A DNA stretch of 59,206 nucleotides, taken from positions 1 through 59,206 of the forward strand of contig CALMJG010000006.1 in the NCBI GenBank assembly GCA_937864195.1, in the 5' to 3' direction. A program made the translations under genes and the position numbers. A model generated the notes under the pieces. It searched no databases. It was given only the letters and a program-made list of their open reading frames with translations, and was not told the origin of the DNA. Source of the stretch: an uncultured Novosphingobium sp. Lineage in GTDB: Bacteria > Pseudomonadota > Alphaproteobacteria > Sphingomonadales > Sphingomonadaceae. Positions within the stretch are counted from its first letter, which is position 1; each line of letters opens with the position of its first letter. Positions 10,264 through 27,211 of the stretch are shown here, one piece after another.

Positions 10264-11547
10264 ATGACCGAGGCCGCCGCCCTTCCGCGCGCCGCGCAGG
10301 GCCTTGCCCTCCAGCGCTCGCTTGCGCTGACCATGCTGTTCGTGGTCGGCACGATCAACTTCGTCGACCGCCAGCTGCTGTCGGTGCTGGTCGAACCGAT
10401 CCGGGCCGAAATGGGCCTCAGCGATACCCAGTTCGGCCTGCTGACGGGACTGGCCTTTGCGCTGTTCTACGCCGGGATGGGCGTGCCGGTGGCGATCCTG
10501 GCCGATCGCTGGAACCGGGTCAGGCTGATCGCCCTGTCGTGCCTGGTGTGGAGCGCGTTCACCGCGCTGACCGGCAAGGTTTCGAGCTTTACCCAGCTTG
10601 CACTGGTCCGCTTTGGCGTGGGCGCGGGCGAGGCGGGCGGAACGGCGCCATCGCTGTCGCTGGTATCCGACCTGTTCCCGCCGCACCGCCGCCCTCTCGC
10701 CGTCGCGATCTACCAGCTGAACGGGCCGTTCGGAGTCTTCGTGGGGGCCGCCTTCGGCGCCTGGGCGGCGGCCAACATCGGCTGGCGCGGGGCCTTCCTG
10801 GTCATGGGCCTGGTCGGGGTAGCGATTGCCCCCCTGCTGATCTGGGCGGTCAGGGAACCGCCGCGCGGGCAGATGGATGCTGCCGGCGCCAGCGAAGAGC
10901 CCGTGCCGCTGCGCGATACCCTGGCGCTGTTCCTGCGCAGCCCTTCGCTGCGGCTGGTCCTGCTGGGCAACGGCCTCTCGGCCTTTGTCAGCTACGGCAT
11001 TCTCAACTGGGTTCCGGCCTTCCTGATGCGCTCGCAGGGGATGTCGCTTCCCGCCATGGGCCAGTGGTTCGGACCCGCCGCCGGCATCACTTTCGGCATC
11101 GGAATCCTGGGCAGCGGCTGGCTGGTCAGCCGGATCGCACAGAGCGACCGGCGTGCCTATGGCTATGTTCCGGGCATTGCCTCGCTGCTGATCGCGCCGG
11201 GCCTCGCCGCCGCGCTGCTGATGCAGGGATGGGAGGCCTCGCTGGCGGTCATGCTGCTGCCGCTGACCGCCTGCACGGTCTACATCGCGCCGGGGCTGGC
11301 ACTGGTCCAGAACCTCACCCCGCCCCGTTCGCGCGCGACCGCCTCTGCCATCCTGCTGCTGATGTACAACATCGTCGGACTGGGCCTGGGGCCGCTGTTC
11401 GTGGGCATGCTGAGCGACTTCCTGCGCCCCGCGCTGGGCGACGACAGCCTGCGCTGGGGCCTGATGGGGATCATTCCCTTCGCCCTCGCCGCTGCGGCGA
11501 CCCAGTTCGCCATGACCCGCCACCTCAACCGGGAGCTTGCCGAATGA
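10264..11547 (+). CDS. MFS transporter (Spinster-like)
   Basis: Inner-membrane permease of 427 residues with about 12 membrane segments. The opening helix region INFVDRQLLSVLVEPIRAE and the ADRWNRVR loop are typical of the Spinster-like MFS subgroup common in sphingomonad catabolic clusters. It differs from the AAHS permease at 1857, so the two uptake systems probably serve different substrates. Its stop overlaps the next start (ATGA at 11544), so it is translationally coupled to the SnoaL-like gene. The substrate is not predictable from sequence. Confidence 0.87.
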   Translation: MTEAAALPRAAQGLALQRSLALTMLFVVGTINFVDRQLLSVLVEPIRAEMGLSDTQFGLLTGLAFALFYAGMGVPVAILADRWNRVRLIALSCLVWSAFTALTGKVSSFTQLALVRFGVGAGEAGGTAPSLSLVSDLFPPHRRPLAVAIYQLNGPFGVFVGAAFGAWAAANIGWRGAFLVMGLVGVAIAPLLIWAVREPPRGQMDAAGASEEPVPLRDTLALFLRSPSLRLVLLGNGLSAFVSYGILNWVPAFLMRSQGMSLPAMGQWFGPAAGITFGIGILGSGWLVSRIAQSDRRAYGYVPGIASLLIAPGLAAALLMQGWEASLAVMLLPLTACTVYIAPGLALVQNLTPPRSRATASAILLLMYNIVGLGLGPLFVGMLSDFLRPALGDDSLRWGLMGIIPFALAAAATQFAMTRHLNRELAE

Positions 11548-14006: not shown

Positions 14007-15569
14007 TCAGACTGCCCGGTCGCGGCCTTCCCAATAGGGCGCGCGCAGTTCGCGCCGAAGCACCTTGCCCGACGGGTTGCGCGGCAGGACCGCGATGAAA
14101 TCCACGCTCTTGGGCGCCTTGAAATGGGCGATCCGGTCCCGCGCCCAGGCGATGATTCCGGCGGGATCGGGCTGCTCACCCGGCGCGGGCACGACCAGCG
14201 CCTTCACCGCCTCCCCCCACTTGTCATCCGGCACGCCGATCACCGCGACATCGGCAACGCCGGGGCAACCCATGATCGCGCTCTCGACCTCAGCCGGGTA
14301 GACGTTCTCCCCGCCCGAGACGATCATGTCCTTGATCCGGTCATGGACGAAATAGAACCCGTCCGCATCGCGGTAGCCGACATCGCCGGTGTGGAGCCAC
14401 CCCCCGGCCACGGTCTCCGCCGTGGCGTCCGGGCGGTTCCAGTATTCGCGCATCACCGTGCCGCCACGGATCGCGATCTCGCCGATCTCGCCATCGCCCA
14501 GTTCGCGCCCTTCCGCGTCGAGGATCGCCAGTTCGGTCGCGGGCCACGGCTCGCCGCAGGAGGTCAGCTTGCCGGGCAGATCGTGCGCCCGGGGCGAGAG
14601 ATAGGTTCCGCCACCGGTCGATTCCGTCATCCCGTAAAACTGGACGAAGCCGCAGCCGAAAGTCGCGCGGGCACGGCGCAGCACGTCCTCGGCAATCGGC
14701 GAAGCGCCATAGGCAATCGTCAGCAGGCTGGAAAAGTCGGCGCCCGTCGAAGCTGGATCCTGCAACATCATCTGGATCATCGCCGGCGCCAGGAACGAGT
14801 GGGCGACGCGTTCCGCCTCGACCATCCGGATCGCATCGGCCGGCACGAAATCCTTCACCACCACCAGCCGCGCGCCTTGCGCAAGGCCGGAAAAGCTCAC
14901 GTTCGTGCCCGCCACATGGAACAGCGGCATGACGATCATCACGGTCTCGCCCTCGCCATAGGCGAAGCCATCGACCGCCGAGGCCATCTCGAGGAAGCTG
15001 CGGTAATTGGTGTTGTCCAGCACCACACCCTTGGGCCGGCCGGTGGTGCCGCTGGTGTAGAGCTGGAGCACATGGTCGCTCAGCTGCGGCGGATCGGCGG
15101 GCGGCGTTTCAGCCGCATGGCCCAGCCAGCTGTCGAGCGGCTCGAACGCGGGATGCGCACCGCACAGGGCAACCAGGTGGGGCGGATGTGCGAGGCCTGC
15201 CACGGCATCCTGTGCCAGGGGGAAGAAGTCGTCGCTCACGAACAAGACCCGGGGGGCGGCATCCTCAAGGATGAAGGCGATCTCGCCCGCCGCCAGCCGG
15301 CAGTTGATCGGCGCGAAACAGGCGCGGGCGCGGGCCGTGCCGAAGAACAGCGGGAACCAGGCGTCGTGGTTCTTGGCCAGCACGGAAACCCGGTCCCCCG
15401 GATGCACCCCGTGCGCTGCGAGGGCATTGGCCACCCGGTTGGTCTGGGCATCGAGCGCGGCGAAGGTCGTTTCGCGATCCCCGAACTTGATCGCCACGGC
15501 CTCACCCTGCCGCCGCGCCTGTGCGGCAGGAATGTCGGCAAGCGTTCGGATGGCGTCCAGATCGATCAT
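14007..15569 (-). CDS. AMP-dependent acyl-CoA synthetase/ligase 1
   Basis: Class I adenylate-forming enzyme of 520 residues that activates a carboxylic acid to its CoA thioester. The P-loop is LYTSGTTGRPKGVVL, the A5 motif YGMTESTGG, the A7 motif LHTGDVGY, the hinge DRIKDMIVSGGENVYP, and the catalytic lysine lies in RNPSGKVLRREL near the end. The substrate is unknown, with medium-chain or aromatic acids possible. It is transcribed divergently from the MetE-like gene, and a MarR-type motif lies in the 97-bp gap. GGGAGAG precedes the ATG. It is one of three such ligases in the window, each with different neighbours. Confidence 0.88.
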   Translation of the reverse strand: MIDLDAIRTLADIPAAQARRQGEAVAIKFGDRETTFAALDAQTNRVANALAAHGVHPGDRVSVLAKNHDAWFPLFFGTARARACFAPINCRLAAGEIAFILEDAAPRVLFVSDDFFPLAQDAVAGLAHPPHLVALCGAHPAFEPLDSWLGHAAETPPADPPQLSDHVLQLYTSGTTGRPKGVVLDNTNYRSFLEMASAVDGFAYGEGETVMIVMPLFHVAGTNVSFSGLAQGARLVVVKDFVPADAIRMVEAERVAHSFLAPAMIQMMLQDPASTGADFSSLLTIAYGASPIAEDVLRRARATFGCGFVQFYGMTESTGGGTYLSPRAHDLPGKLTSCGEPWPATELAILDAEGRELGDGEIGEIAIRGGTVMREYWNRPDATAETVAGGWLHTGDVGYRDADGFYFVHDRIKDMIVSGGENVYPAEVESAIMGCPGVADVAVIGVPDDKWGEAVKALVVPAPGEQPDPAGIIAWARDRIAHFKAPKSVDFIAVLPRNPSGKVLRRELRAPYWEGRDRAV

Positions 15570-15666: not shown

Positions 15667-16713
15667 TTGCTCCAGCTGCCTCTTCTGCCGACGACCATCG
15701 TCGGAAGCTACCCGCAACCGGACTGGCTGATCGACCGTGAGCGGCTGAAGGCCAGCCTGCCCCCGCGCGTGCGGGCAGAGACGCTGTGGCGCGTGCCCGC
15801 GGCCTGGCTGGCCGACGCGCAGGAAGCCGCGACGCTGATGGCGATCCGCGATCAGGAAGAGCTGGGGATCGACATCGTCGGCGATGGCGAGATGCGCCGC
15901 GAAAGCTATTCCAACCGGCTCGCCACCGCGCTTTCCGGCATCGATCCCGAACGCCACGGCACCGCGATCGACCGCACCGGCAACGCCAATCCGGTGCCGC
16001 TGGTGTCCGGCCCGATCCGCCGCCTGGGGCCAATCGAGGCGCAGGACGCGGCCTTCCTTCGGCGCCATTCCACGCGCCCGGTCAAGCTGACCCTGCCCGG
16101 CCCCTTCACCATGACCCAGCAGGCCGAGAACGGCTATTACCCGGACGACCGGGCGCTGGCGATGGACTATGCCGATGCGGTAAATGCCGAAATCCGCGAC
16201 CTTTTCGCCGCCGGGGTGGACGTGGTCCAGCTCGACGAACCCTATCTCCAGGCCCGCGCCGACGCCGCGCAGGACTATGCGCTTGAGGCCATCGACCGCG
16301 CGCTGGACGGAGTGGAGGGATGCACGGCGCTGCACATCTGCTTTGGCTATGCACTGGTCCATCAGGGCGCGGGGAGCACCAAGCCCAAGGCCTATGACTT
16401 CCTCGCCGAACTCGACGCCTCAAGGATCGACGTGATCTCGATCGAGGCGGCGCAGCCGGGGCTAGACCCGTCGATCCTGGAGGAATTGCCCAGCAAGACC
16501 ATCATGTACGGCGTGCTCGATCTGTCGACGCCGGAAGTTGAAACGCCCGAGGTGGTGGCCTCCCGGATCGAGCAGGCCTTGCGCCATGTCGATGCGAAGC
16601 GGCTTTGGATCGCGCCCGACTGCGGGATGAAGTACCACAGCCGCGAGCTGGCGCAGGCCAAGCTCAAGGCGATGGTCGACGGGACCGCGCTGGCCCGGGC
16701 AAGGCTGCGCTAA
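15667..16713 (+). CDS. core MetE-like zinc-dependent methyl/alkyltransferase
   Basis: Protein of 348 residues corresponding only to the C-terminal catalytic barrel of cobalamin-independent methionine synthase; the N-terminal folate-binding half is absent. It opens TTIVGSYPQPDWL. All zinc ligands are visible: His and Cys in LHICFGY, Glu in DVISIEAAQPG, and Cys in IAPDCGMKYHS. Such enzymes activate a thiol for alkylation; relatives include core-MetE methionine synthases and epoxyalkane:CoM transferase. The TTG start is chosen because AGGGGAA lies about 8 nt upstream. It is divergent from an acyl-CoA synthetase and carries a MarR-type operator. That fits catabolic transfer of a methyl or alkyl group better than methionine synthesis, but donor and thiol acceptor are unknown. 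Confidence 0.8.
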   Translation: MLQLPLLPTTIVGSYPQPDWLIDRERLKASLPPRVRAETLWRVPAAWLADAQEAATLMAIRDQEELGIDIVGDGEMRRESYSNRLATALSGIDPERHGTAIDRTGNANPVPLVSGPIRRLGPIEAQDAAFLRRHSTRPVKLTLPGPFTMTQQAENGYYPDDRALAMDYADAVNAEIRDLFAAGVDVVQLDEPYLQARADAAQDYALEAIDRALDGVEGCTALHICFGYALVHQGAGSTKPKAYDFLAELDASRIDVISIEAAQPGLDPSILEELPSKTIMYGVLDLSTPEVETPEVVASRIEQALRHVDAKRLWIAPDCGMKYHSRELAQAKLKAMVDGTALARARLR

Positions 16714-16735
16714 AGTGCTGAAATGATGCCATACC

Positions 16736-16803
16736 TCCGTTCGTGTCGAGCTTGTCGAGACACGTCTGCGCGAACGTGTCTCGACAAGCTCGACACGAAC
16801 GGA
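16736..16803. repeat. dispersed palindromic repeat, copy A
   Basis: A perfect 30-bp inverted repeat with an 8-nt loop (16766-16773). The arms begin TCCGTTCGTGTCGAGC and contain GTCGAGACACGT. Related copies lie at 45687 and 56109. It sits between the convergent MetE-like and hydrolase genes and could act as a bidirectional terminator or REP-type element. Confidence 0.9.
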
Positions 16804-16854
16804 AGCTGGTTTTCAAAAAGGCTCTCAAAGGCACCTGACGGCACCTAGAGGCTC

Positions 16855-17547
16855 TCAAGCGTCGAGGAACGCGTCCAGAAGGGGCACCACAACCTCGGGC
16901 GCCTCGATCGTGACAAGGTGTCCGGCACCGGGAATCACGGCCAGCCGAGAACCGTCAATAAGACTGACTATATCGTCCTGATGGGCGCGGCTGGTGATGC
17001 CGTCTTCCGCCCCCCACACCACCAGCGTCGGCACATCGATTTCACCCAGGCGGGGGCGGCTGTCCTCGCGGGCCATGATCGCGCGCTGCTGGGCGAGGAA
17101 CACTTCGGCCCCCGTGTCTGCTGCCATCTCGCGGGCTAGCCCAAGCAGGCGTTCGTCACTGCGCCGCGATTCGGGAAACAGGATCGGAATCCGTTCCTCC
17201 ACCACCTGGTCGAATTTGCCCGCCTCGACGAGATCGATGTAGCCCTGCCGCCGCGCGGTCTGGGCCGGGCCATCGGCGGATGCGAGGGTAGCGATCAGCA
17301 CCAGCTTCGCCACCCGCTCCGGCGCGCGGCGCATGACCTCGAAAGCGACGAAGCCGCCCATCGCGTGGCCGATCAGGACGAAGCGCGGCGGGGCGTTCTC
17401 CAGCAGCCGCGTGGCGATGCCGGCAATCGTATCGTCGCTGCGGTTGTCGGCGACGATCACCTCGCGGTCAGGCCAGCCATCGAGCAGCGGCTGCCACACC
17501 GCATCGGTGAGCAGCTGACCGGTGATCAGGACAATCGGCAGGCCCAT
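16855..17547 (-). CDS. alpha/beta-hydrolase fold protein lacking the nucleophile serine
   Basis: Alpha/beta-hydrolase of 230 residues, last gene of a five-gene coupled operon. The nucleophile elbow reads IGHAMGGFVAFE, so the catalytic Ser position is Ala62 (codon GCG). The acid D182 (WGAEDGITS) and the histidine H210 (GAGHLVTIE) remain. Without the serine, ordinary ester or C-C hydrolysis is unlikely. Members of the fold without a working nucleophile can be lyases, cofactor-free oxygenases or binding proteins. ATG 17547 overlaps the TGA of the dehydrogenase by one base. The frame is otherwise intact and shows no decay, so a selected function is inferred. Confidence 0.83.
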   Translation of the reverse strand: MGLPIVLITGQLLTDAVWQPLLDGWPDREVIVADNRSDDTIAGIATRLLENAPPRFVLIGHAMGGFVAFEVMRRAPERVAKLVLIATLASADGPAQTARRQGYIDLVEAGKFDQVVEERIPILFPESRRSDERLLGLAREMAADTGAEVFLAQQRAIMAREDSRPRLGEIDVPTLVVWGAEDGITSRAHQDDIVSLIDGSRLAVIPGAGHLVTIEAPEVVVPLLDAFLDA

Positions 17548-18467
17548 CACACCACCTGATGCAGCAGCGGCTCGCCAGCATTCAGGCGGCGGCAGTTTTC
17601 GTGCGCGACATCAAGGCTGCGGACCAGCGTTTCGGGAGTCAGCCAGGCGATATGCGGGGCCAGCACGACGCTTGGCAGGGCGAGCAGCGGATTGTCCGCC
17701 GGCACCGGTTCCGCCGCAAACACGTCCAGCCCCGCGCCGCGCAGGTGGCCGCTGCTCAGCGCCTGAACCAGCCGCGCCTCGTCCACCAGTTCGCCGCGCG
17801 CGGTGTTGACCAGAATGGCGCCCGGCTTCATCGCCAGCGGGTCGATGGAGGCGCGTGTTTCCTCGGTCAGCGGGATGTGGAGCGAAACCACGTCACTTTG
17901 CGCCAGCAGTTCATCCAGCGGCAGGTATTCATAAGGCAGGTCGCGCGGCGAACGCGCGGTGTAGACCACCCTTGCCCCGAGCGCCGCCAGGACCGGGGCC
18001 AGCCGCTGCGCCGAATTGCCGATCCCGACCAGGCCGACCGTGCGCCCCGCCACCTCGCCCACGGCGTCGAGTTCGGACGGGTCCGCGCTCCAGCCCTTGC
18101 CCGCGCGGGTGCGCGCGTCGAAAAAGCAGGTGCGGCGCAGCACGGCCATCATCAGCGACAGCGCCATTTCGGCGACGGCCTGGCTGTTGGTCCCCGGCAT
18201 GTTGCACACCGCCACGCCATGGGTCCGCGCGGCGTCGAGCGCGATCGTGTTGACCCCCACCCCCAGCTTCTGGATCAGCTTCAATTTGGGCGCCGAGGCA
18301 ATGAATTCCGGCGTCACCGGCGTCAGCACGTGAAGCAGCGCGGTGATCTCACCCGCCACGCCGTCCAGCGGCGCGGCCTCGTCGACATGAACCACCACGT
18401 CCTGGCCGAAAATGGCATCGACCGCGGCGCGGAACCCCGGGCTGGGGCGGGCATGGAGCACGATCAT
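17547..18467 (-). CDS. D-2-hydroxyacid dehydrogenase family protein
   Basis: NAD(P)-dependent oxidoreductase of 306 residues that interconverts a 2-hydroxy acid and a 2-keto acid. The substrate domain precedes the Rossmann segment GLVGIGNSAQRLAPVLAALG. The catalytic Arg lies in VNTARGELVDE, the Glu comes in AGLDVFAAEP, and the His is in LAPHIAWLTPE. The family includes phosphoglycerate, glyoxylate/hydroxypyruvate and D-lactate dehydrogenases. The ATG overlaps the enolase TGA (ATGA at 18464-18467) with GGGAGG upstream. The location between an enolase paralogue and a hydrolase suggests that it handles the keto acid released by the enolase-type step, or forms the hydroxy acid the kinase uses. 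Confidence 0.87.
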   Translation of the reverse strand: MIVLHARPSPGFRAAVDAIFGQDVVVHVDEAAPLDGVAGEITALLHVLTPVTPEFIASAPKLKLIQKLGVGVNTIALDAARTHGVAVCNMPGTNSQAVAEMALSLMMAVLRRTCFFDARTRAGKGWSADPSELDAVGEVAGRTVGLVGIGNSAQRLAPVLAALGARVVYTARSPRDLPYEYLPLDELLAQSDVVSLHIPLTEETRASIDPLAMKPGAILVNTARGELVDEARLVQALSSGHLRGAGLDVFAAEPVPADNPLLALPSVVLAPHIAWLTPETLVRSLDVAHENCRRLNAGEPLLHQVV

Positions 18468-19762
18468 GCCAGCGCCTCCCGGATCGGCGCGGCAAAGGCC
18501 GAGGCCCCGGCATAGACGGCGTCCGCCCCCATCGCTTCCTCGATCCGCAGCACCTCGTTCCACTTGGACATGCGTTCGGAGCGGGTGAAGCTGCCGACCT
18601 TCAGTTGCCCGGCGTCCCAGCCGGTCGAAAGATGGGCGATGGCGACATCCTCGCTCTCACCCGAGCGCGCGGAGACGATCGCCCCCCAGCCCTGTGCCAC
18701 AGCGGCATCGAGCGCGGCCTTGGCCTCGGTCACGGTCCCCACCTGGTTGACCTTGATCAGCGCCGCGTTGACCACCTTGCCCGCCGCAGCCCGTTCCACC
18801 CGCGCGGCATTGGTAACGAGCACGTCATCGCCGATGATCTGAACGCGGCCCCCGATGGCGGCGGTAACCCGCGCCACGCTTTCCCAGTCGTCCTGCCCAG
18901 CGGGGTCTTCAATCGAGAGGATCGGATAGCGATTGCACCACTCCACGATCCGTGCCGCCATTTCCTCGCCAGACAGCCGCCGGTCATCGAGCGCCAGCGT
19001 ATAGCCATCGGCATCGCCCAGTTCATTGGCGGCGATGTCGAGCGAGATCCACACGTCTTCGCCCGCACGGTGGCCGCTCGCCTCGATGGCCCTGGTCAGG
19101 ACGTCCAGCGCATCCTCGTTGGAAGCGAAGTCCGGCCACCAGCCGCCTTCGTCCGCCACGCCCGACAGCGGCCCGCGTGCTTCCATCAGGCGGCCCGCCG
19201 CGCGGTAGACATCGGCGGTGATTTCCAGCGCGCGGCGGAAGGTTCCCGCGTTCGGGCACATCACCATGAAGTCCTGCACGTCGGTGCGCCGCCCGGCATG
19301 GGCGCCGCCGCCGAAGATCTGGATTTCAGGCAGCGGCAGGCGCACTTTCGCCCCTCCCGCCAGCCAGCGCCAGACCGGTTCGCGCGCGTGGTCGGCGGCG
19401 GCGTGCAACACGGCGAGCGAGACCGCGACCACCGCGTTCGCCCCCAGCCGCGCCTTGTTGGGCGTGCCGTCAAGGTCGCACAGCACCCGGTCGATAGCGG
19501 CCTGCTCACGCGCGTCCAGGCCGATCAGCGCGGGCGCGATTTCCCGCCCGATGCCGGAGACCGCCTTGTTCACGCCGAACCCGCCGAAGGCCTCACCGCC
19601 ATCGCGCAGGTCGATGGCTTCATGGGCCCCGCGCGAGGCCCCGGCTGGAGCGATCGCACGGCCAATCGCGCCGCCTTGCAGCACGACCTCGGCCTCCACA
19701 GTGGGCCGCCCGCGCGAATCCCAGATCTGGCGGCCGGTGACGGAGACGATACGCGCAGTCAT
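18464..19762 (-). CDS. enolase (phosphopyruvate hydratase) paralogue with altered active site
   Basis: Enolase-superfamily protein of 432 residues, the usual enolase length. Canonical residues kept by comparison with E. coli and yeast enolase are S43 of the mobile loop, H155, E205 (ADEGG), metal ligands D242, E285 (SIEDPA) and D312 (GDDVLVTN), base K337, R366-S367 and K388. Changed positions are PSGAST to PAGASR (A40, R44), the Glu of the IQEFM motif to D164 (VQDFM), and the His of SHRSGETED to A365 (SARSGESED). It therefore probably acts on a 2-phospho-3-hydroxy acid other than 2-phosphoglycerate, or with changed kinetics. The start overlaps the kinase stop (TGATG). It is a second enolase inside a catabolic operon, not the usual glycolytic location. 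Confidence 0.86.
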   Translation of the reverse strand: MTARIVSVTGRQIWDSRGRPTVEAEVVLQGGAIGRAIAPAGASRGAHEAIDLRDGGEAFGGFGVNKAVSGIGREIAPALIGLDAREQAAIDRVLCDLDGTPNKARLGANAVVAVSLAVLHAAADHAREPVWRWLAGGAKVRLPLPEIQIFGGGAHAGRRTDVQDFMVMCPNAGTFRRALEITADVYRAAGRLMEARGPLSGVADEGGWWPDFASNEDALDVLTRAIEASGHRAGEDVWISLDIAANELGDADGYTLALDDRRLSGEEMAARIVEWCNRYPILSIEDPAGQDDWESVARVTAAIGGRVQIIGDDVLVTNAARVERAAAGKVVNAALIKVNQVGTVTEAKAALDAAVAQGWGAIVSARSGESEDVAIAHLSTGWDAGQLKVGSFTRSERMSKWNEVLRIEEAMGADAVYAGASAFAAPIREALA

Positions 19763-20742
19763 CAAAGGGTCCTTTGCCATTGCGCCACCAGCGCATCCAG
19801 CGGCCGCGGGCGCAGCAGCAGGGCGCGCGCCTGATGTCGCACGGTGGTCTTGTGGGTTTGAGCGATGAGATAGGGTGCGGGCGACTTGCCCTCGATCCGG
19901 GCGAGCAGCAGGCCGGCACAATAAGATCCGGCGCGGGCGAGGAAGTCGGCGGGCGGTTCCCAGTCGATCCCTGCCGCATAGGCGGCCACCATCGCGGCGG
20001 CGGCGTCGCGCAGCACTTCGCGGTCCAGCCAGACGGCTTTCAGCAACAGGTGCGCGGTGCAGAAGGCCAGGTCGAAGGCGGGATCGCCCCATGTCGCGCA
20101 TTCGGCATCGAGGAACACCGGCCCGTCGGCCGCGACAAGGATGTTCTTGGGGCTGACATCGCCGTGCACCACCGCGATTCCGTGGTCATGGAACTGCCCG
20201 GCCAGCGCCTGCAGCGCCGGGGCCAGTTCCGCGTCCTGCCGCGCGACATGGAGGAAGAACGGATCGAGCCGCAGCGCGTGGAACATCGCCTCGTTCGGGA
20301 AGGCGGCGGCGTCGCCCCGATTGAAGGCGGTTGCGGCATGGACCCGGGCGATCCCGCTGCCCACTGCCGCCGCGAACGCCGGATCGACGCGGCCCGCGAT
20401 CAGTTCGTCCTTCCACACCGGGCAGCCGGGCAGGAAGCGCAGGACGAAGGTGTGCAGATCGGGAAAGTCGGCCAGCACTTCGGGCGCGAGCGAAGGGGCG
20501 ACGCCGCGTGCGCGCCGCAGCCAGCGCACTTCGCTGGTGCCACGTTCGACCGGGGCCTCCCACAGCGCCGCCACGCGCAGCTGCGGCAGCGGGCGCTTGA
20601 CCACCACTGGGCCGGAAGGCGTTTCCACCCTCCACACGTCGCACGAAACGCCGCCGGTCAGCGGCACCAGCTCAGGCGTCTCGCCTCCAATCAGCCCGGC
20701 GCCGCGCAGGGCCTCGATGATCTGTGCGGCGCCTTCTTCCAT
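19762..20742 (-). CDS. aminoglycoside phosphotransferase (APH)-family kinase
   Basis: Small-molecule kinase of 326 residues with the protein-kinase-like APH fold. The nucleotide lysine is in GPVVVKRPLP, the catalytic loop is VVHGDVSPKNILV (HGDxxxxN), and the metal aspartate is in FLDAECATWGDP. Despite the family name, most members are not antibiotic-resistance enzymes; they phosphorylate sugars, choline, amino acids or metabolic hydroxyls. ATG 20742 overlaps the upstream TAA (TAATG). It lies directly before an enolase paralogue, so the inferred role is to make the phosphorylated hydroxy acid which that enzyme dehydrates. The substrate is unknown, with glycerate-like acids as the simplest guess. 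Confidence 0.86.
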   Translation of the reverse strand: MEEGAAQIIEALRGAGLIGGETPELVPLTGGVSCDVWRVETPSGPVVVKRPLPQLRVAALWEAPVERGTSEVRWLRRARGVAPSLAPEVLADFPDLHTFVLRFLPGCPVWKDELIAGRVDPAFAAAVGSGIARVHAATAFNRGDAAAFPNEAMFHALRLDPFFLHVARQDAELAPALQALAGQFHDHGIAVVHGDVSPKNILVAADGPVFLDAECATWGDPAFDLAFCTAHLLLKAVWLDREVLRDAAAAMVAAYAAGIDWEPPADFLARAGSYCAGLLLARIEGKSPAPYLIAQTHKTTVRHQARALLLRPRPLDALVAQWQRTL

Positions 20743-21869
20743 TACAGCTTCTCCCGGATCCACGCCGTGACGAGGTCGGCGGCGTTCTGCCGCTCGGCAA
20801 TCGAATCCTCGAAATAGTGCGCTCCGGTGATCAGTTCGAGCTTCTTGTCGCTGGTGCCAAGGAAATCGAAGATCTTGCGCGCATCGCTGGGGAACACGCC
20901 GGTATCGGCCGTGCCCTGCACCACCAGCGCCGGGGTATCATGCTTGGCGAGGTGCGGTTTGCCCTGGCACGGCGAGGTTTCGAGGCTCCACATGTTGAGC
21001 CAGGTCTTGAGCGTGTTGGCGCGGCCGATGCTGGGGGTGCGGTTGGCAATCGCCGGGTCGCCGCGATAGCACCAGTTGGGCTTGCGCTCCGACGGATCAA
21101 GCGCGGGATCGACGCAGCGGATATCGCCCCAGCAGCGGAACATCGGGAAGATCCGGTCGGGAATGCCCGCCGCGTTGAGCCGCGCCAGTTCCGCCTTAGC
21201 CCAGTCGGTGATGCGCTGGTTGCGCGCGCGCTGCGCGGCGCGGTAGCGGGTGACGAATTCTGCCGAATAGGGCGGGCCGTTATCCGGGTTGAACGGATCG
21301 AGCGCGGGGTCGGTCGCCACCGGATCGTTCTCGTCCAGCACCGAGGCGTCCATCCAGTCGGTCAGCACTTCGGGGCGGCCCTGGTGCGCGTTGAACGAGA
21401 TGTAGAGATCGCCCTTGATGATCCGGGCGAGCGCGTCCTGCCCGACGGAAGGCAGCCGATCGGTCAGCGTGGGCGCGATGGCTTCGGCCTGATAGGCGCC
21501 CATCAGCGAGCCGCCGCCCGAATTGCCCAGGATCACCACGGCCTCCACTCCGGCCTCTTCTTTCAGCCAGCGCACGCCCACCCCGATGTCGAGCACTGCG
21601 TGTTCCAGCATGAACGTGTCTTCGAACCCCCGGTAGCGGGTGTTCCACCCCAGGAAGCCGAAGCCCGCGCGGGCGAAATAGGGCGCGATGTAATGCTCGG
21701 AAAAGTCGACGTTATAGTGCGTGGCGATGATCGCGACCTTGGGGCGCTTGCCGGCCTGGGTATAGTAGATGCCCTGGCACGGATGCCCGCCCGCCTGGAT
21801 GCGCGGCGCGGTGGGCGATGTGCGCCCGATGAATGTCGCGTCCAGCCCTTCAAGCCCGTTGGGGTCCAT
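20742..21869 (-). CDS. alpha/beta-hydrolase (esterase-like), first gene of the kinase/enolase operon
   Basis: Alpha/beta-hydrolase of 375 residues with an intact triad: Ser in VVILGNSGGGSLMG, Asp in QGTADTGVFPSDA and His in GAHYFED. A long insertion (about residues 160-270) with WGDIRCVDPALDP and several Trp forms a lid. No signal peptide is seen, so it acts in the cytoplasm. AGGAGAG lies 8 nt before the ATG. A MarR-type motif lies 47 bp upstream. Ester, thioester or lactone hydrolysis releasing the hydroxy acid used by the next four enzymes is the natural guess; the substrate is not known. Confidence 0.83.
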   Translation of the reverse strand: MDPNGLEGLDATFIGRTSPTAPRIQAGGHPCQGIYYTQAGKRPKVAIIATHYNVDFSEHYIAPYFARAGFGFLGWNTRYRGFEDTFMLEHAVLDIGVGVRWLKEEAGVEAVVILGNSGGGSLMGAYQAEAIAPTLTDRLPSVGQDALARIIKGDLYISFNAHQGRPEVLTDWMDASVLDENDPVATDPALDPFNPDNGPPYSAEFVTRYRAAQRARNQRITDWAKAELARLNAAGIPDRIFPMFRCWGDIRCVDPALDPSERKPNWCYRGDPAIANRTPSIGRANTLKTWLNMWSLETSPCQGKPHLAKHDTPALVVQGTADTGVFPSDARKIFDFLGTSDKKLELITGAHYFEDSIAERQNAADLVTAWIREKL

Positions 21870-21915
21870 CGTCGTCTCTCCTGTCCTTGCGGCGTTTGTC
21901 CGCCGTCCGATATAG

Positions 21916-21928
21916 ATAGAAAGCTAAG
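21916..21928. promoter_or_regulatory. putative MarR-regulon operator 3 (ATAGAAAGCTAAG)
   Basis: A member of the 13-bp motif family (WTAGNANRCTAAS) in the 64-bp gap upstream of the five-gene kinase/enolase operon (minus strand). Confidence 0.55.
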
Positions 21929-21933
21929 TATCG

Positions 21934-22518
21934 TCAGGAGCCGGGTGGCGCAAGGGCGGTGGCAACGCGCACCAGGCTGGCAGCGGTCAGGTCCACCAGA
22001 CCTGCGACCATGGCGTCTTTCAGCGCGCCCTGTTCGTCGAAGGCCAGGTGCGCGGCGGGCAGCTGGACCTGTTCGGGGATCACCAGCATCTGCACGGTGG
22101 AGAGGATCTGGCGCAGGTGCGTCACGGCGCGCATCCCGCCGAACGGGCTGAGCGAAGCGCCCATAACCGCCGCCGCCTTGCCGCGATAGGCGCTCAGCGC
22201 CAGCATCGCCTCGCCATCGGTGGGGCGCGAGGCCCAGTCGATCGCGTTCTTGAGCAGCGGCGGGATCGAGCCGTTGTATTCCGGCGTCACCACCAGCAGC
22301 CCCGCCTGCTGGCTCAGCACCTGCTTGAGCCGCAGCGCGTGCGCCGGAAAGGCGTTCGCCTCCAGCGCGGCGGAATAGAGCGGGAGGTCATATGCGGCGA
22401 GGTCGAGCGTCGTGACCTCTGCCCCGCGCGCTTCCAGCGCCCGCGCCGCAACGGCGGCCAGCGCCCGGTTCCACGAACCCTCGCGCGTGCTGCCTGCAAG
22501 AACTGCGATTCTGGTCAC
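21934..22518 (-). CDS. NADPH-dependent FMN reductase family protein
   Basis: Flavodoxin-like oxidoreductase of 194 residues. The FMN phosphate loop is LAGSTREGSWNRAL, and the conserved VVTPEYNGSIPPLLKNAIDW motif is complete. Members supply reduced FMN to monooxygenases or reduce quinones and chromate. It is the only obvious electron-transfer protein in the island, but it is not a ferredoxin reductase and is unlikely to be the direct partner of the Rieske oxygenase. The GTG start at 22518 has a GGGGGG ribosome site. A MarR-type motif lies 28 bp upstream and marR1 is the next gene upstream. Confidence 0.87.
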   Translation of the reverse strand: MTRIAVLAGSTREGSWNRALAAVAARALEARGAEVTTLDLAAYDLPLYSAALEANAFPAHALRLKQVLSQQAGLLVVTPEYNGSIPPLLKNAIDWASRPTDGEAMLALSAYRGKAAAVMGASLSPFGGMRAVTHLRQILSTVQMLVIPEQVQLPAAHLAFDEQGALKDAMVAGLVDLTAASLVRVATALAPPGS

Positions 22519-22545
22519 CTTGCCCCCCGATTCCCGTGGAAATGA

Positions 22546-22558
22546 TTAGAAGGCTAAC
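22546..22558. promoter_or_regulatory. putative MarR-regulon operator 4 (TTAGAAGGCTAAC)
   Basis: TTAG-N4-CTAA symmetry lies between the end of marR1 (22588) and the start of the flavin reductase gene (22518). It fits the same 13-bp consensus. Confidence 0.55.
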
Positions 22559-22587
22559 CTTTCCGCTCGGGACGGGCAAGCAGAGCG

Positions 22588-23094
22588 TCAGGCCTGGAGG
22601 TCGCTTTCCAGTTCCAACTTGGCGTTTTCTTCCGCCAGGTTGGCGATCACCCGGCGCATCAGCACCTGCATGGTCTCCACCTCCTCCTCGGTCATTCCGC
22701 GCGTCGCGATCTCGTGGATCTCGGCATTGAAGGGCGCCAGCACCAGTTCGAGATCGCGGCCGTGGGGCGTGAGGTGGATGAAGGTCTTGCGGCGATCGTC
22801 AGCAGTCTTGCTGCGGGTGATCAGACCCGCCTTTTCCAGCCCCTTGACCGCCACTACCGTGGTCGGCTCGCGCATTCCCACCCGTTCGCTGAGTTCGCGC
22901 TGGGTGATCCCGTCCTCGCGCCACAGCTGGCGCAGGAACCGCCACTGGCCGGCGGAGACATTGTGCGTCAGCGTACCACGCTCCAGCAACCGCGAGAACG
23001 AGCGGAACACGATCCGCGCGAGATAGCCGATGCTGTTTTCCGGATCGGTGTAATATTCGGCCGGATGCCGCACGCCGGACTGACTTTCTGCCAC
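22588..23094 (-). CDS. MarR family transcriptional regulator 1
   Basis: Winged-helix regulator of 168 residues. The DNA-binding part is DGITQRELSERVGMREPTTVVAVKGLEKAGLITRSKTADDRRKTFIHLTPHG, with the typical MarR wing DDRRK. Flanking helices form the dimer and ligand pocket. The start is uncertain: GTG 23094 with an AGGG-type site is chosen, and an ATG at 23160 is in frame but would add an Arg-rich tail. A perfect 14-bp palindrome (23186-23199) lies upstream, as expected for autoregulation. The same motif occurs before other operons of the island, making this protein or marR2 the likely regulon controller. Confidence 0.87.
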   Translation of the reverse strand: MAESQSGVRHPAEYYTDPENSIGYLARIVFRSFSRLLERGTLTHNVSAGQWRFLRQLWREDGITQRELSERVGMREPTTVVAVKGLEKAGLITRSKTADDRRKTFIHLTPHGRDLELVLAPFNAEIHEIATRGMTEEEVETMQVLMRRVIANLAEENAKLELESDLQA

Positions 23095-23185
23095 TGCCTT
23101 ACCCTTTCGCGCCGCCTTCCAGCGCCCGCGCGGCCTTAAGCCAAGTCGCGCCGATGGCAATGGACAAGGGGCGAAGCCGCGATTG

Positions 23186-23259: not shown

Positions 23260-23724
23260 TCAGGCGCCCTCGCCCTCGGGTTCATCGGCCAGCAGATTCG
23301 CGGTCATCTTGGCGATCGCGGCAAGGAAGCGGGCCTGTTCGCCAGGTTCCAGCCCCGTCCCGGCCAGCGCGTTGACCTGCTGCGCCAGCGGCAGCAGGTC
23401 AACGCGCAAGCCGCGCGCGCGCGCGGTCAGCGCGATCACCTGCCGCCGCTTGTCCTCGCTGGAACGGGTGCGGGTAACCAGGCCGTCGCGGACCATCGAT
23501 GCGACGGTGACCGTGATCGTGTTTTCGGCCACCCCGGTCGCGCGGGAGAGCTGGCGCTGGGTCAGGCCATCCTCTTCCCACAGCGCGCGCAGGCAGTACC
23601 ACTGGCTGGGGGAAATGCCGTGGGGCGCGATGCGGCGCTGCAGCGCGCGATCGAAAGCGCGGTGGGCCAGCCGGACGGCAAAGCCCAGGCTCTGCGCGGT
23701 CAGGTCAGATGCGGAATTCTTCAA
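23260..23724 (-). CDS. MarR family transcriptional regulator 2
   Basis: Winged-helix regulator of 154 residues. The DNA-binding region is DGLTQRQLSRATGVAENTITVTVASMVRDGLVTRTRSSEDKRRQVIALT, with the MarR wing EDKRRQ. It is a clear paralogue of marR1 (both have SxGQW/SPSQWxxLRxLWxEDGxTQRxLS-like stretches). The TTG start at 23724 is chosen because AAGGA lies 5 nt upstream; it overlaps the end of the decarboxylase gene by 20 nt. It is thus coupled to the phthalate-like genes, which it may regulate. Two adjacent MarR paralogues suggest that substrate and intermediate are sensed separately. Confidence 0.83.
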   Translation of the reverse strand: MKNSASDLTAQSLGFAVRLAHRAFDRALQRRIAPHGISPSQWYCLRALWEEDGLTQRQLSRATGVAENTITVTVASMVRDGLVTRTRSSEDKRRQVIALTARARGLRVDLLPLAQQVNALAGTGLEPGEQARFLAAIAKMTANLLADEPEGEGA

Positions 23725-24697
23725 GGCATTCCTTCGCGAACAGGTCTTCAGGCTGCAACCGGCGCGGCGACAGGCCCTGCTCATGGTGATAGCGCAGGAA
23801 AGTGTCCAGCACCGCCCGGTTGCGCTCCAGCCCATAAGGCCACCAGTCATCGCCCAGCAGGCCGCGCGCCTGCTCCACCGCCGCGACCTGCCAGGGCAGC
23901 ATGGTCTTGAGCGATGCGGTGACCAGCAGTTCCTCCGCGACCCGTGCCTTGGCCTCGACGAAGGCCTTGTACAGCGCGCGGGCGGCCCAGCGGTTGGCCT
24001 CGTAGACATCGCGGCGCATCGCCACCACGTGCATGATCGGGAACAGGCCGGTGCGGCGGTAATAGTCCTGCTCCACGCCGACGAAATCGGGGAACAGGCG
24101 GCGTACGTCATCGGGGCGGGTATAGAAGGTGCTGGGAATGCGCGCGGTGTGGAGTGCGTCGATCTCGCCATCGGCCAGCATCTGCGACAGGGTCTGGTCC
24201 GGCCCGATCGGCACGACCCTGAACTGCGCGGGCAGGTCCAGCTTCAGCTTCTCCTCGCGCCCGGTCTGCTCCTCGCCGCCGGTGTAATAAGTGACGCTGG
24301 CGGGATCGACGCCGTATTCGTCGGCCAGCACGCCCCTGATCCAGACCGGCGCGGTCATCTGGTACTCGGGCACGCCAATCCGCTTGCCGACCAGGTCCTG
24401 CGGGCGTTCGATTCCGCTCTTGGCCGAGACGAAGATGCAGCCGTGGCGGAACATCCGGCTGGGGAACACGGGCAACGCGACGAAGGTCGGATCGGGCCGC
24501 GAGAGGGAAACGCAGTAGGATGACAGCGACATTTCCGCCGCGTCGAATTCCCGGTGGCGCAGCATCCGGAAGAAGGTTTCCTCCACCTCCAGCACCTGCA
24601 GGTTGAGGTCGATCCCGTCGGGCCGCACCGTGCCATCGGCCAGCGCCTGGGTGCGATCGTAGTTCCAGCAGGCAAGGGAAAGCGGCAGACGGGTCAA
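23705..24697 (-). CDS. 4,5-dihydroxyphthalate decarboxylase-like protein (Pht5 type)
   Basis: Protein of 330 residues with the periplasmic-binding-protein fold but no signal peptide, as in Pht5/OphC. It matches the remembered Pht5 pattern closely: LPLSLACWNYDRTQALADG, VEETFFRMLRHREFDAAEMS, GKRIGVPEYQMTAPVWIRG, YYTGGEEQTGR, VPIGPDQTLSQMLADGEID and DDWWPYGLERNRAVLDTFLRY. Pht5 decarboxylates 4,5-dihydroxyphthalate to protocatechuate. The TTG start has AAGGA 7 nt upstream. It sits 11 nt after the dehydrogenase and overlaps marR2. Automatic annotation often calls such proteins ABC substrate-binding proteins, which the missing signal peptide argues against. The true substrate could be another ortho-dihydroxy aromatic acid. 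Confidence 0.82.
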   Translation of the reverse strand: MTRLPLSLACWNYDRTQALADGTVRPDGIDLNLQVLEVEETFFRMLRHREFDAAEMSLSSYCVSLSRPDPTFVALPVFPSRMFRHGCIFVSAKSGIERPQDLVGKRIGVPEYQMTAPVWIRGVLADEYGVDPASVTYYTGGEEQTGREEKLKLDLPAQFRVVPIGPDQTLSQMLADGEIDALHTARIPSTFYTRPDDVRRLFPDFVGVEQDYYRRTGLFPIMHVVAMRRDVYEANRWAARALYKAFVEAKARVAEELLVTASLKTMLPWQVAAVEQARGLLGDDWWPYGLERNRAVLDTFLRYHHEQGLSPRRLQPEDLFAKECLEEFRI

Positions 24698-24708
24698 GGG
24701 CAGGTCCT

Positions 24709-25854
24709 TCAGATAAGGTCGGTCAGGAGATCGGCGGGGGCGACATCATGCCCCTCGCGCGCGGAGAGCAGGATCGCGTGGCACACGGCGAGCGTTTCCA
24801 GCCCCCAGCGGCCATCGAGCAGGGGCGGCGCGACGCCCTCCACCGCGCGGACGAAGGCCTCGGCCACGTTCCAGCGCTGCACTGGAGGCAGCGACGCGGG
24901 CATGGCGCGCGCGCCGTCGTTACTATGGACGATCACCCCGTCGGGGGTCAGTTCCAGATCGGCCTGCTCGCACAGCGCAACCAGCGAGCCGAGATGTTCA
25001 TGGTGCTTCGGGCGCGGCACCTCAGGCCAGCCGGCGGCGAAGGTCCGCGCGGCCTTGGCCCCTGCCTCGTCGCCCCGGCCCAGCGCGGCGCGGGTGCGCG
25101 CATGAGCAGTCAGCGGCTTGACCGCGCCCAGTTCCCCCACCCATCCGGCCAGGGCGTCGCTGTCATACCGGGCCATGCCCGAATAGGTGAGCGAGGCCGC
25201 AGCGCCGCTGGCGAAGGTCAGCAGCGCGGTAAAGGCGCCCTCGCTCCCGCGCCCGCCCCAGCCGCCGGTCCAGGCGCTGACCGAGGCGACCGGGCTCAGC
25301 GCAAGGCGCCGTGCCATGTCGATCTGGTGAGTCGCCTGGCTGAACACCACGCCCCCGCCCTGTGCCGTGTCCAGCTCTGCCGCGCGGCGCGGGCGGTAGA
25401 GGAAATCGGTGAAGGCAAAGCCGTGAATCAGGCGCAGCGGCCCGGCCTCACCGCCCTCGATCAGGCTGGCAGCCAGTTCGACCGGCGGATCGTAACCGTG
25501 GCTTGGCCCGACCATCAGGACGGTCCCCGCCGCTTCCGCCGCGCGGACCATCGCCGCCGCATGGGCCAGCGAGACGGCCATCGGCTTTTCGACCAGCACG
25601 TGTTTGCCCGCGCGCGCGGCCATCACGGCATGGTCGGCGTGGAATTCATGCGGAGAGGCGACATAGACGGCATCGAACGCGCCCCAGTCCAGCAGGGTCT
25701 CGACCGAATCGAAACACAGCCCGCCAAACCCGGCCCGCGCCGCCGCTTGCGGATCGCAGCCCGCGACGATCTCCACGCCGGGATGCGTAGCAAAGGCAGG
25801 CACGGTCAGCATCGCCCCGCGCCCCAATCCCAGCACTGCCAGCCGCACGCTCAT
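24709..25854 (-). CDS. Gfo/Idh/MocA family oxidoreductase (phthalate dihydrodiol dehydrogenase-like, Pht4 type)
   Basis: NAD(P)-dependent dehydrogenase of 381 residues. The N-terminal Rossmann domain starts VRLAVLGLGRGAMLTVPAF, the family motif EKPMAV lies near residue 90, and the catalytic region is VVFSQATHQIDMAR. The C-terminal end LLDGRWGLETLAVCHAILLSAREG resembles Pht4. In phthalate catabolism Pht4 oxidises the cis-4,5-dihydrodiol to 4,5-dihydroxyphthalate. The order here (oxygenase divergent, then dehydrogenase, then decarboxylase) preserves the three consecutive steps. The start is ATG 25854. Inositol-type or sugar oxidation is the generic alternative, but the neighbours argue against it. 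Confidence 0.83.
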   Translation of the reverse strand: MSVRLAVLGLGRGAMLTVPAFATHPGVEIVAGCDPQAAARAGFGGLCFDSVETLLDWGAFDAVYVASPHEFHADHAVMAARAGKHVLVEKPMAVSLAHAAAMVRAAEAAGTVLMVGPSHGYDPPVELAASLIEGGEAGPLRLIHGFAFTDFLYRPRRAAELDTAQGGGVVFSQATHQIDMARRLALSPVASVSAWTGGWGGRGSEGAFTALLTFASGAAASLTYSGMARYDSDALAGWVGELGAVKPLTAHARTRAALGRGDEAGAKAARTFAAGWPEVPRPKHHEHLGSLVALCEQADLELTPDGVIVHSNDGARAMPASLPPVQRWNVAEAFVRAVEGVAPPLLDGRWGLETLAVCHAILLSAREGHDVAPADLLTDLI

Positions 25855-25902
25855 CCGCCTCTCCCGGCCTGCACCATAGCGCAGGGCGCTTGCGATGCAA
25901 AT

Positions 25903-25920
25903 TACTTCGCATTAGAAGTA
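25903..25920. promoter_or_regulatory. inverted repeat in the oxygenase/dehydrogenase divergent promoter
   Basis: TACTTC-N6-GAAGTA lies in the 94-bp gap between the divergent Gfo/Idh and Rieske genes. It contains TTAGAAG, half of the MarR-type motif, but is not a full match. Candidate operator only. Confidence 0.45.
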
Positions 25921-25948
25921 TTGCAGATCACCACGGAGTCCCGCTGCC

Positions 25949-27211
25949 ATGACCCCTCGCCAGAACGATCTCCTCTGCCGCGTCGAAGGCGATGCACCGA
26001 TGGGCAAGGTCATGCGCCGCCACTGGCTGCCGGTCTGCATGAGCGAGGAAGTGGCAGAGCCCGACGGCACCCCGCGCCGCGCCCGCCTGCTGGGCGAGGA
26101 CATGGTGGTGTTCCGCGACACGCAAGGCCGCGTCGGCGTGCTGGATGAACGCTGCCCCCACCGCCGCGCCTCGCTGGTCTATGGCCGCAACGAGGAATGC
26201 GGGCTGCGCTGCCTTTACCACGGCTGGAAGTTCGACGTGGAGGGCAAGGCGGTCGACCTCTCGTCCGAACCGGCGGACGCGAAATTGCAGCACACCATGC
26301 GCACCCGCGCCTATCCGGTGCGGGAAGCGGGCGGCTTCGTCTGGGCGTGGCTGGGCGATCCCGAAAATCCCGCTCCGTTCGACCCGCCGGTCTGGGCCAA
26401 GGCCCCGGCAGACAAGATCGCGATCATGAAGATCCACGGCGCCTGCAACTGGGCGCAGGTGCTGGAAGGGGCGATCGATTCGGCCCATTCCAGCAGCCTC
26501 CATTCCACCAACATGCCCACCGCGCCGGATGTCAGCAGCTCGACCGCGACCGACAGCGCCTGGCTGCGCCCCTCTGCCGACAAGTCGCCCCGGCTGGAGG
26601 TGGAGCGCACCCCCTACGGCTTCCGCTATGCCGCGATCCGCAAGCCGATCCACAATCCCGAAAGCCAGGACTACGTGCGCACCACCCTGTTCGCCGCACC
26701 GTTTTCGGTGATGATCCCCCCGACCGACCGCTATCGGCTCAACCAGATGCTGGTGCCGGTCGATGATACCAACTGCATGTTCTACTGGATCGCCTGGCAC
26801 GAGACCAAGGGCATCACGGCCCAGGCCTGGCGCAGCTTCTGCGATGCCGTGCCGGGGGTGGACGTGGACCCGGTGACCTACCGCAAGGTTCGCAACCTCG
26901 AAAACGATTACCTGCAGGACCGCGCGAAGATGAAGGCCGGGGATTTCACCGGGATCACCGGCATTCCCACGCAGGACATGGCGATGTGGGAATCGATGGG
27001 GCCAATCGCGGACCGCAGCCATGACAAGCTGGGATCGAGCGACCGGGCTATTGTCGAATTCCGCAAGATCATGCTTCAGCAGGCGATGGAGGCAGACAGC
27101 GAACCGCCGGCGAAGACCTGGCGCAACGCCGATCTGTTCACTTTCGAAGGCATGGTCGCCAAACAGGACGACTGGCGCGAGGTGCGCCCGGAGGCACCCG
27201 TGCCCGCCTGA
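25949..27211 (+). CDS. Rieske aromatic ring-hydroxylating oxygenase, large subunit (phthalate 4,5-dioxygenase / O-demethylase group)
   Basis: Oxygenase of 420 residues. The Rieske [2Fe-2S] ligands are C69 and H71 (ERCPHRR) and C88 and H91 (CLYHGW). The mononuclear iron site is D177-x2-H180-x4-H185 in EGAIDSAHSSSLHS. The opening TPRQNDLLCRVEGDAPMGKV is typical of the group with phthalate 4,5-dioxygenase and LigX-type O-demethylases, which work as homo-oligomers without a beta subunit. It is divergent from dehydrogenase and decarboxylase genes matching the next two phthalate steps. No ferredoxin or reductase gene is in the window, so electrons must come from elsewhere. Phthalate, an isomer or a methoxylated diacid are candidate substrates. 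Confidence 0.88.
   Translation: MTPRQNDLLCRVEGDAPMGKVMRRHWLPVCMSEEVAEPDGTPRRARLLGEDMVVFRDTQGRVGVLDERCPHRRASLVYGRNEECGLRCLYHGWKFDVEGKAVDLSSEPADAKLQHTMRTRAYPVREAGGFVWAWLGDPENPAPFDPPVWAKAPADKIAIMKIHGACNWAQVLEGAIDSAHSSSLHSTNMPTAPDVSSSTATDSAWLRPSADKSPRLEVERTPYGFRYAAIRKPIHNPESQDYVRTTLFAAPFSVMIPPTDRYRLNQMLVPVDDTNCMFYWIAWHETKGITAQAWRSFCDAVPGVDVDPVTYRKVRNLENDYLQDRAKMKAGDFTGITGIPTQDMAMWESMGPIADRSHDKLGSSDRAIVEFRKIMLQQAMEADSEPPAKTWRNADLFTFEGMVAKQDDWREVRPEAPVPA

Follow-up and report, generated by a model that had tools for sequence, protein, structure and literature searches.

Enolase (EC 4.2.1.11) is usually thought to have a single function, and in the serine-cycle route it acts together with hydroxypyruvate reductase and glycerate 2-kinase. 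The nonphosphorylative aldonate routes employ a dehydratase of the IlvD or MR/MLE type, which uses the free acid, along with an SDR and an FAH hydrolase, and the lanthipeptide dehydratase LxmK/LxmY combines a kinase with a lyase, the phosphate leaving from a peptide side chain. Here we describe a gene cluster in a 59,206-nucleotide stretch of contig CALMJG010000006.1 from an uncultured Novosphingobium sp. (the window, hereafter), in which five minus-strand open reading frames (ORFs; 16855-21869) encode, in order, an alpha/beta-hydrolase-fold protein (EST), an APH-family kinase, an enolase paralogue, a D-2-hydroxyacid dehydrogenase, and a second alpha/beta-hydrolase-fold protein. The cluster shares three reaction types with the serine-cycle route, here gathered in one operon, but its kinase belongs to another family and its enolase is an altered paralogue. 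Unlike in the aldonate routes, whose genes some loci carry beside the kinase-enolase pair, the acid would first be phosphorylated, and unlike in LxmK/LxmY, the phosphate would stay and water would leave. The cluster probably removes water from a hydroxy acid after a phosphate has been attached to it, and its pairing of a kinase with an altered enolase is present in many bacteria.

To describe this pairing, we compared 111 paralogue loci, 79 of which were collected by the peptide patterns TDVQDFM or ADEGGWW, two (L033 and L034) by a same-genus search, and 30 by whole-protein score (E 1e-124) from 39 matching genomes other than the window's. This set omits L035, L054, and the window itself, and two of its members (L088 and L177) may come from a single genome. 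Because the peptide patterns bias the counts of D164 and Trp discussed below, the 30 whole-protein-score loci, which are free of this bias, provide the fairer test. In 102 of the 111 loci, the kinase gene shares the strand of the paralogue and lies directly upstream of it, and its stop codon overlaps the enolase start in 88 of these 102 pairs (ATGA in 81 and TGATG in 7). This overlap, together with the recurrence of the block in other genomes, argues against a chance arrangement. In a set of 83 loci, which includes two genomes twice (L054 = L033 and L081 = L035), the neighbors of the paralogue include the kinase in 78 cases, the dehydrogenase in 68, the serine-less last protein of the operon in 62, a MarR-family regulator in 60, and EST in 57. 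Co-evolution is weak as proof of coupling: correlations of r 0.85-0.93 are seen for each of the ten gene pairs within the block, and among diverse loci the kinase-enolase correlation persists (0.67, 39 loci), whereas the dehydrogenase-enolase correlation does not (-0.11, 14 loci).

The paralogue occurs in 33 of 385 genomes from an even sample of the class and in 9 of 398 from an even sample of the phylum (eight of these from the class and one from elsewhere), the window's genome being counted in both and matches being taken at E 1e-124. Close orthologues (70-84% identity) were found in three of 58 same-genus genomes (G015, G024, and G027), some of the 58 being incomplete. Among the best 80 of 522 confirmed candidate loci in a scan of named genomes, the genera include Sphingopyxis, Novosphingobium, Sphingomonas, Phenylobacterium, and other Caulobacteraceae, with Labrys, Metarhizobium, Caballeronia, Ramlibacter, and others as further taxa. 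The neighborhood, for which a preliminary description of this DNA had suggested a search across genomes, is conserved far beyond this strain.

Like enolase, the paralogue contains both Pfam domains (PF03952 and PF00113), and it scores 470 bits against TIGR01060 (cut-off 300), the NCBIfam rule that labels it phosphopyruvate hydratase. The window's genome has two enolases, this protein and one on contig 2 that is the housekeeping copy; they are 44% identical, and in a tree, 75 thinned paralogues split from 27 other enolases with an SH-aLRT support of 100. Yeast residue numbers, mapped onto the alignment by motif, are used below. An excerpt of PMC4922564 gives E168, E211, K345, and K396 as the Catalytic Site Atlas residues of 7ENL. 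In our alignment, the E168 position is occupied by Asp in 111/111 paralogue loci and by Glu in all 31 other enolases, and the H373 position, in the HRS motif, by Ala in 111/111 and by His in 31/31; both substitutions, E168D and H373A, are found in 30/30 of the whole-protein-score loci. Ten further positions (S39, H159, E211, D246, E295, D320, K345, R374, S375, and K396) are invariant across the 111 paralogue loci and the 31 other enolases, so that the metal ligands, the base Lys345, the acid Glu211, Lys396, and the phosphate ligands are retained in every paralogue locus. E168 and H373 sit by the leaving hydroxyl in enolase, and a change in both, with the residues for phosphate, carboxylate, and metal retained, makes 2-phospho-D-glycerate an unlikely substrate. 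The paralogue therefore resembles enolase in its domains, metal ligands, base, acid, and phosphate ligands, and differs in E168D, H373A, its partner kinase, and its own clade; its earlier designation as a paralogue is borne out by the housekeeping copy and by the changed active site. Further, Pro287 (Gly in other enolases) and Val389 (mostly Thr in others) are found in 111/111 paralogue loci, Trp209 replaces Ala in 110/111, and Arg159 of the paralogue is present in 109/111. Arg44, which we considered as a universal substrate-binding arginine, was rejected, being found in only 12/30 whole-protein-score loci. The second enolases of G002, G006, G021, and G030 (loci L036, L037, L038, and L039; 41-45% identical) belong to a different paralogue group in the genus, and no kinase homolog was seen near them, the G006 gene lying 490 bases from a contig end.

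The kinase matches PF01636 with 63.4 bits (cut-off 23.2), and the HGD...N and DxE motifs are found in 104/104 kinases of the locus set. Its fold is closest to that of methylthioribose kinase, a sugar kinase, but it is only 16-20% identical to 5-methylthioribose kinase (MtnK) and scores 58.6 bits against TIGR01767, far below the cut-off of 275. At E 0.001, its three Pfam matches include none of the known glycerate kinase classes (MOFRL, PF02595, and PF00485), and the three classes described in an excerpt of Kehrer et al. (PMC2063504) do not include APH.

In the dehydrogenase, Arg224, Glu253, and His272 are found in 76/80, 75/80, and 74/80 sequences, respectively, the remainder being unaligned except for one Pro at 272. 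All 21 NCBIfam models that match it do so below cut-off, and its closest PDB sequence is 2cuk, a glycerate dehydrogenase/glyoxylate reductase. The family produces D-2-hydroxy acids, and Arg172, located after β2, may point to NADPH as the cofactor. The gene is immediately downstream of the paralogue on the same strand in 70/111 loci and otherwise within 2.5 kb in 8/111. A homolog is present in 14/30 whole-protein-score loci versus 0/20 control loci, which surround the ordinary glycerate kinase in paralogue-carrying genomes (mean 16.4 kb, versus 18.0 kb for the 43 loci tested; among the 20 control genomes, G392 and G470 carry the paralogue outside the 30 loci, and some of the 30 are without a control), although two of the 14 (L157 and L181) are just 33-34% identical and lie >6 kb away.

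The same comparison showed LacI regulators in 7/30 loci versus 0/20 controls and FAH-family hydrolases in 6/30 versus 1/20. Importers of the sugar or organic-acid type adjoin several pairs (by eye; one TRAP DctM and one ABC permease were confirmed). Outside the sphingomonads and Caulobacteraceae, the surroundings of the pair vary widely (mostly by eye, single representatives being confirmed): it occurs (i) with ABC importers plus an SDR or aldehyde dehydrogenase in L106, L115, and L164; (ii) with TRAP carriers in L163 and L165; (iii) in LacI-pair-FAH-SDR cassettes in L166 and L178; (iv) with a branched-chain-type ABC importer, FAH, and LacI in L172 and L181, where the kinase homolog is 6-9 kb away; or (v) by itself. 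The FAH protein of L178 has as its best match an L-2,4-diketo-3-deoxyrhamnonate hydrolase (8gsr, E 1.6e-82).

From the gene order, pairing, conserved residues, and distribution described above, we infer the reactions, their order, and the class of substrate. The dehydrogenase would convert a 2-keto-3-hydroxy acid to a D-2,3-dihydroxy acid, or else act on the keto-acid product; the kinase would place a phosphate onto the 2-OH of the 2,3-dihydroxy acid; and the paralogue would abstract the C2 proton and expel the C3 hydroxyl, yielding an enol phosphate and then a 2-keto acid. In the lineage of the window, these genes lie in a catabolic island that also encodes TonB receptors, an MFS carrier, two alpha/beta-hydrolase proteins, and acyl-CoA ligases. 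We give a probability of about one-half to such a phosphorylate-then-dehydrate module, whose substrate would be a 2,3-dihydroxy acid different from 2-phospho-D-glycerate, such as an aldonic acid or another sugar acid. Phosphorylation followed by an enolase-type elimination, as proposed in the preliminary description, remains the best fit to the strict kinase-enolase pairing. More tentatively, many Alphaproteobacteria and some Burkholderiales may possess an ATP-driven dehydration of sugar acids or 2,3-dihydroxy acids, in which an APH-type 2-kinase and a re-tooled true enolase replace the free-acid dehydratases. If the paralogue does act on another acid, many genomes carry a wrong name for a conserved step of several catabolic islands, and the enolase family proper serves a second function. 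The open-licence literature, a scope outside which most subscription journals lie, yielded no description of this gene set, and an excerpt of PMC12632266, on the L-glucose pathway, mentions neither enolase nor glycerate.

Several observations weigh against such a module. The dehydrogenase is not universal in paralogue loci, and the TIGR01060 score places the paralogue among phosphopyruvate hydratases. An enol phosphate other than phosphoenolpyruvate (PEP) would need a phosphatase, and no phosphatase or pyruvate-kinase-like gene was seen by eye among 39 recurrent neighbor ORF families (mostly from sphingomonad and Caulobacteraceae loci, and including some spurious antisense ORFs), which favors PEP as the product; a pyruvate-kinase-like gene lies ∼3 kb from the pair in L182 (by eye). 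Both pair-FAH-SDR loci also contain an ordinary type of sugar-acid dehydratase, namely IlvD/EDD (L166/L186) and MR/MLE (L178; galactonate-dehydratase-like, below its cut-off), so that the pair is not needed there as the sole dehydratase. Moreover, a search of genomes that covered the PF05161 (MOFRL, class II) and PF02595 (class I) glycerate kinases, leaving aside the PF00485 type, showed that among 11 sphingomonads with the paralogue (the window's genome, three of its genus, five Sphingopyxis, and two Sphingomonas), MOFRL is missing in 10 and PF02595 in all 11. The argument that a further glycerate kinase would be redundant therefore fails in sphingomonads, where the APH kinase could be the glycerate kinase of genomes lacking the ordinary ones. 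Five other paralogue genomes include two with MOFRL and none with PF02595 (16 genomes with the paralogue in all). However, four genomes of the same family with no paralogue match (G116, G249, G348, and G429) are also without MOFRL, and its lack is thus no evidence of replacement by the APH kinase.

One alternative is a route from hydroxypyruvate to PEP, in which an NADPH hydroxypyruvate reductase, a glycerate 2-kinase of a further, APH-type class, and a specialized 2-phosphoglycerate enolase would perform serine-cycle reactions. Such a route requires no extra phosphatase and suits the pairs that seemingly stand alone (L113 and L117, by eye); the match of the dehydrogenase to 2cuk and the scarcity of ordinary glycerate kinases in sphingomonads fit it as well; and in L166 and L178, where dehydratases are already present, hexonate cleavage would give glycerate. 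We nonetheless consider it unlikely, if the strongest of the alternatives, because the catalytic Glu168 and His373 are replaced in every paralogue locus, a housekeeping enolase is already in the genome, the kinase falls outside the three glycerate kinase classes described in the excerpt of PMC2063504, and 28/32 class genomes with the paralogue already own a MOFRL glycerate kinase (versus 164/352 without the paralogue, genome size and descent being uncontrolled). The preliminary description had itself raised an ordinary glycerate kinase feeding a 2-phosphoglycerate enolase; the active-site changes make this less likely, while the sphingomonads without MOFRL leave room for it.

An L-glycerate 2-kinase followed by a paralogue acting on 2-phospho-L-glycerate would account for a dedicated kinase and enolase, the ordinary ones being D-specific, and for PEP formation without a phosphatase, and the FAH neighbor in L178 is of an L-sugar type. 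Yet the dehydrogenase family is known to give D-2-hydroxy acids, the base Lys345 and the acid Glu211 are unaltered, and no direct evidence favors the L-form, which makes this possibility improbable. The change in one of the four listed catalytic residues would fit a paralogue that has lost this kind of catalysis and assists the kinase in a structural or regulatory role. This reading is the least probable of all, since every locus keeps the metal and phosphate ligands as well as Lys345, Glu211, and Lys396, for which a noncatalytic protein would have no need.

Table 1. Coordinates of the operon, its junctions, and conserved neighboring genes in the window
Feature	Position	Strand	Family match and occurrence
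EST, alpha/beta-hydrolase-fold protein, 375 aa; putative nucleophile S117 in GNSGG, D322, H351	20742..21869	-	
APH-family small-molecule kinase, 326 aa; motifs HGDxSPKN and DAE	19762..20742	-	
Enolase paralogue, 432 aa; D164 (yeast E168) and A365 (yeast H373)	18464..19762	-	
D-2-hydroxyacid dehydrogenase, 306 aa; R224, E253, and H272 kept	17547..18467	-	PF00389, PF02826
Alpha/beta-hydrolase fold (last gene), 230 aa; Ala62 at nucleophile site, D182 and H210 kept	16855..17547	-	PF00561
TAATG stop-start, EST/kinase junction	20740..20744	-	
TGATG stop-start, kinase/enolase junction	19760..19764	-	
ATGA stop-start, enolase/dehydrogenase junction	18464..18467	-	
TGATG stop-start, dehydrogenase/last-gene junction	17545..17549	-	
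NADPH-dependent FMN reductase family protein, conserved neighbor	21934..22518	-	PF03358; 44/83 loci
MarR-family regulator, may control the unit	22588..23160	-	PF01047; 60/83 loci
Short MetE-like methionine-synthase-family protein	15667..16713	+	NF006589, below cut-off; 48/83 loci
Acyl-CoA ligase	14007..15569	-	NF004837, above cut-off; 35/83 loci
MFS transporter	10264..11547	+	Best NCBIfam match D-galactonate transporter, below cut-off; 41/83 loci

The ORF coordinates and junction letters bear out the preliminary description in its five genes and its four overlaps, and these overlaps suggest that the operon proteins may be made in step. Its family calls also hold by Pfam or NCBIfam for the kinase, enolase, dehydrogenase, and last gene, whereas "esterase" is a weaker call for the first gene. 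The FMN-reductase-family and MarR genes lie upstream on the strand of the operon, with gaps of 64 and 69 bases, and the transcription unit may therefore comprise seven genes. A consensus scan of 16600-22700 found no sigma-70 promoters or simple terminators. Directly downstream of the operon is an inverted repeat (16744-16795), whose 18-base half-site has 28 copies in the genome (16 forward and 12 reverse; control 0), often forming inverted pairs in the manner of a REP-like element.

EST matches alpha/beta-hydrolase models of Pfam only below threshold (PF12146, 23.8 vs 27; PF00326, 22.1 vs 22.6). Its putative Ser-Asp-His triad is conserved at S117 in 56/57, D322 in 55/57, and H351 in 54/57 sequences, the rest being unaligned; that it releases a hydroxy acid, as suggested earlier, is a guess. 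The last gene was rightly called serine-less: its nucleophile elbow reads G-H-A-M-G, and A62, D182, and H210 are each found in 61/61 sequences. The modeled fold is an ordinary esterase fold, with no Ser, Cys, or Asp at the nucleophile site. The invariant Ala (61/61) sets it apart from the Thermogutta esterase 4uhd and other alpha/beta hydrolases, and the product is a conserved nonstandard member of this group. A GQL motif, also invariant (61/61), stands where an HG oxyanion motif is usual.

Beyond the operon genes, the sphingomonad and Caulobacteraceae islands contain acyl-CoA ligases, the short MetE-like protein, VOC, CMD, GST, SMP-30, and SnoaL families, as well as MFS carriers, TonB receptors, and often a second LeuCD, with families confirmed on single representatives. 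The MetE-like protein of the window has the HxC and C motifs of a zinc site (by eye). LeuC was rejected as a housekeeping gene, because G015, G024, and G027 have another LeuC-like aconitase-family gene elsewhere, and since the contig of the window has no aconitase match, LeuCD falls outside the proposed mechanism. A second LeuC/LeuD-type set lies by the cluster in L033 (1826-3838) and L070 (2649-7757), the latter adding a family III CoA transferase and an HMGL-like gene.

Farther along the window, a phthalate-type set (23705-27211) encodes a decarboxylase-like protein, a GFO/IDH dehydrogenase, and a LigXa-type Rieske oxygenase. The first of these (23705-24697) resembles a 4,5-dihydroxyphthalate decarboxylase by eye only, with no Pfam or NCBIfam match at E 1e-5; in the 83 loci, the decarboxylase-like and GFO/IDH genes recur in 8 and the Rieske gene in 5. 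An MPAB/Lcp-type oxygenase domain (PF09995; 34579-35475) adjoins a TonB receptor.

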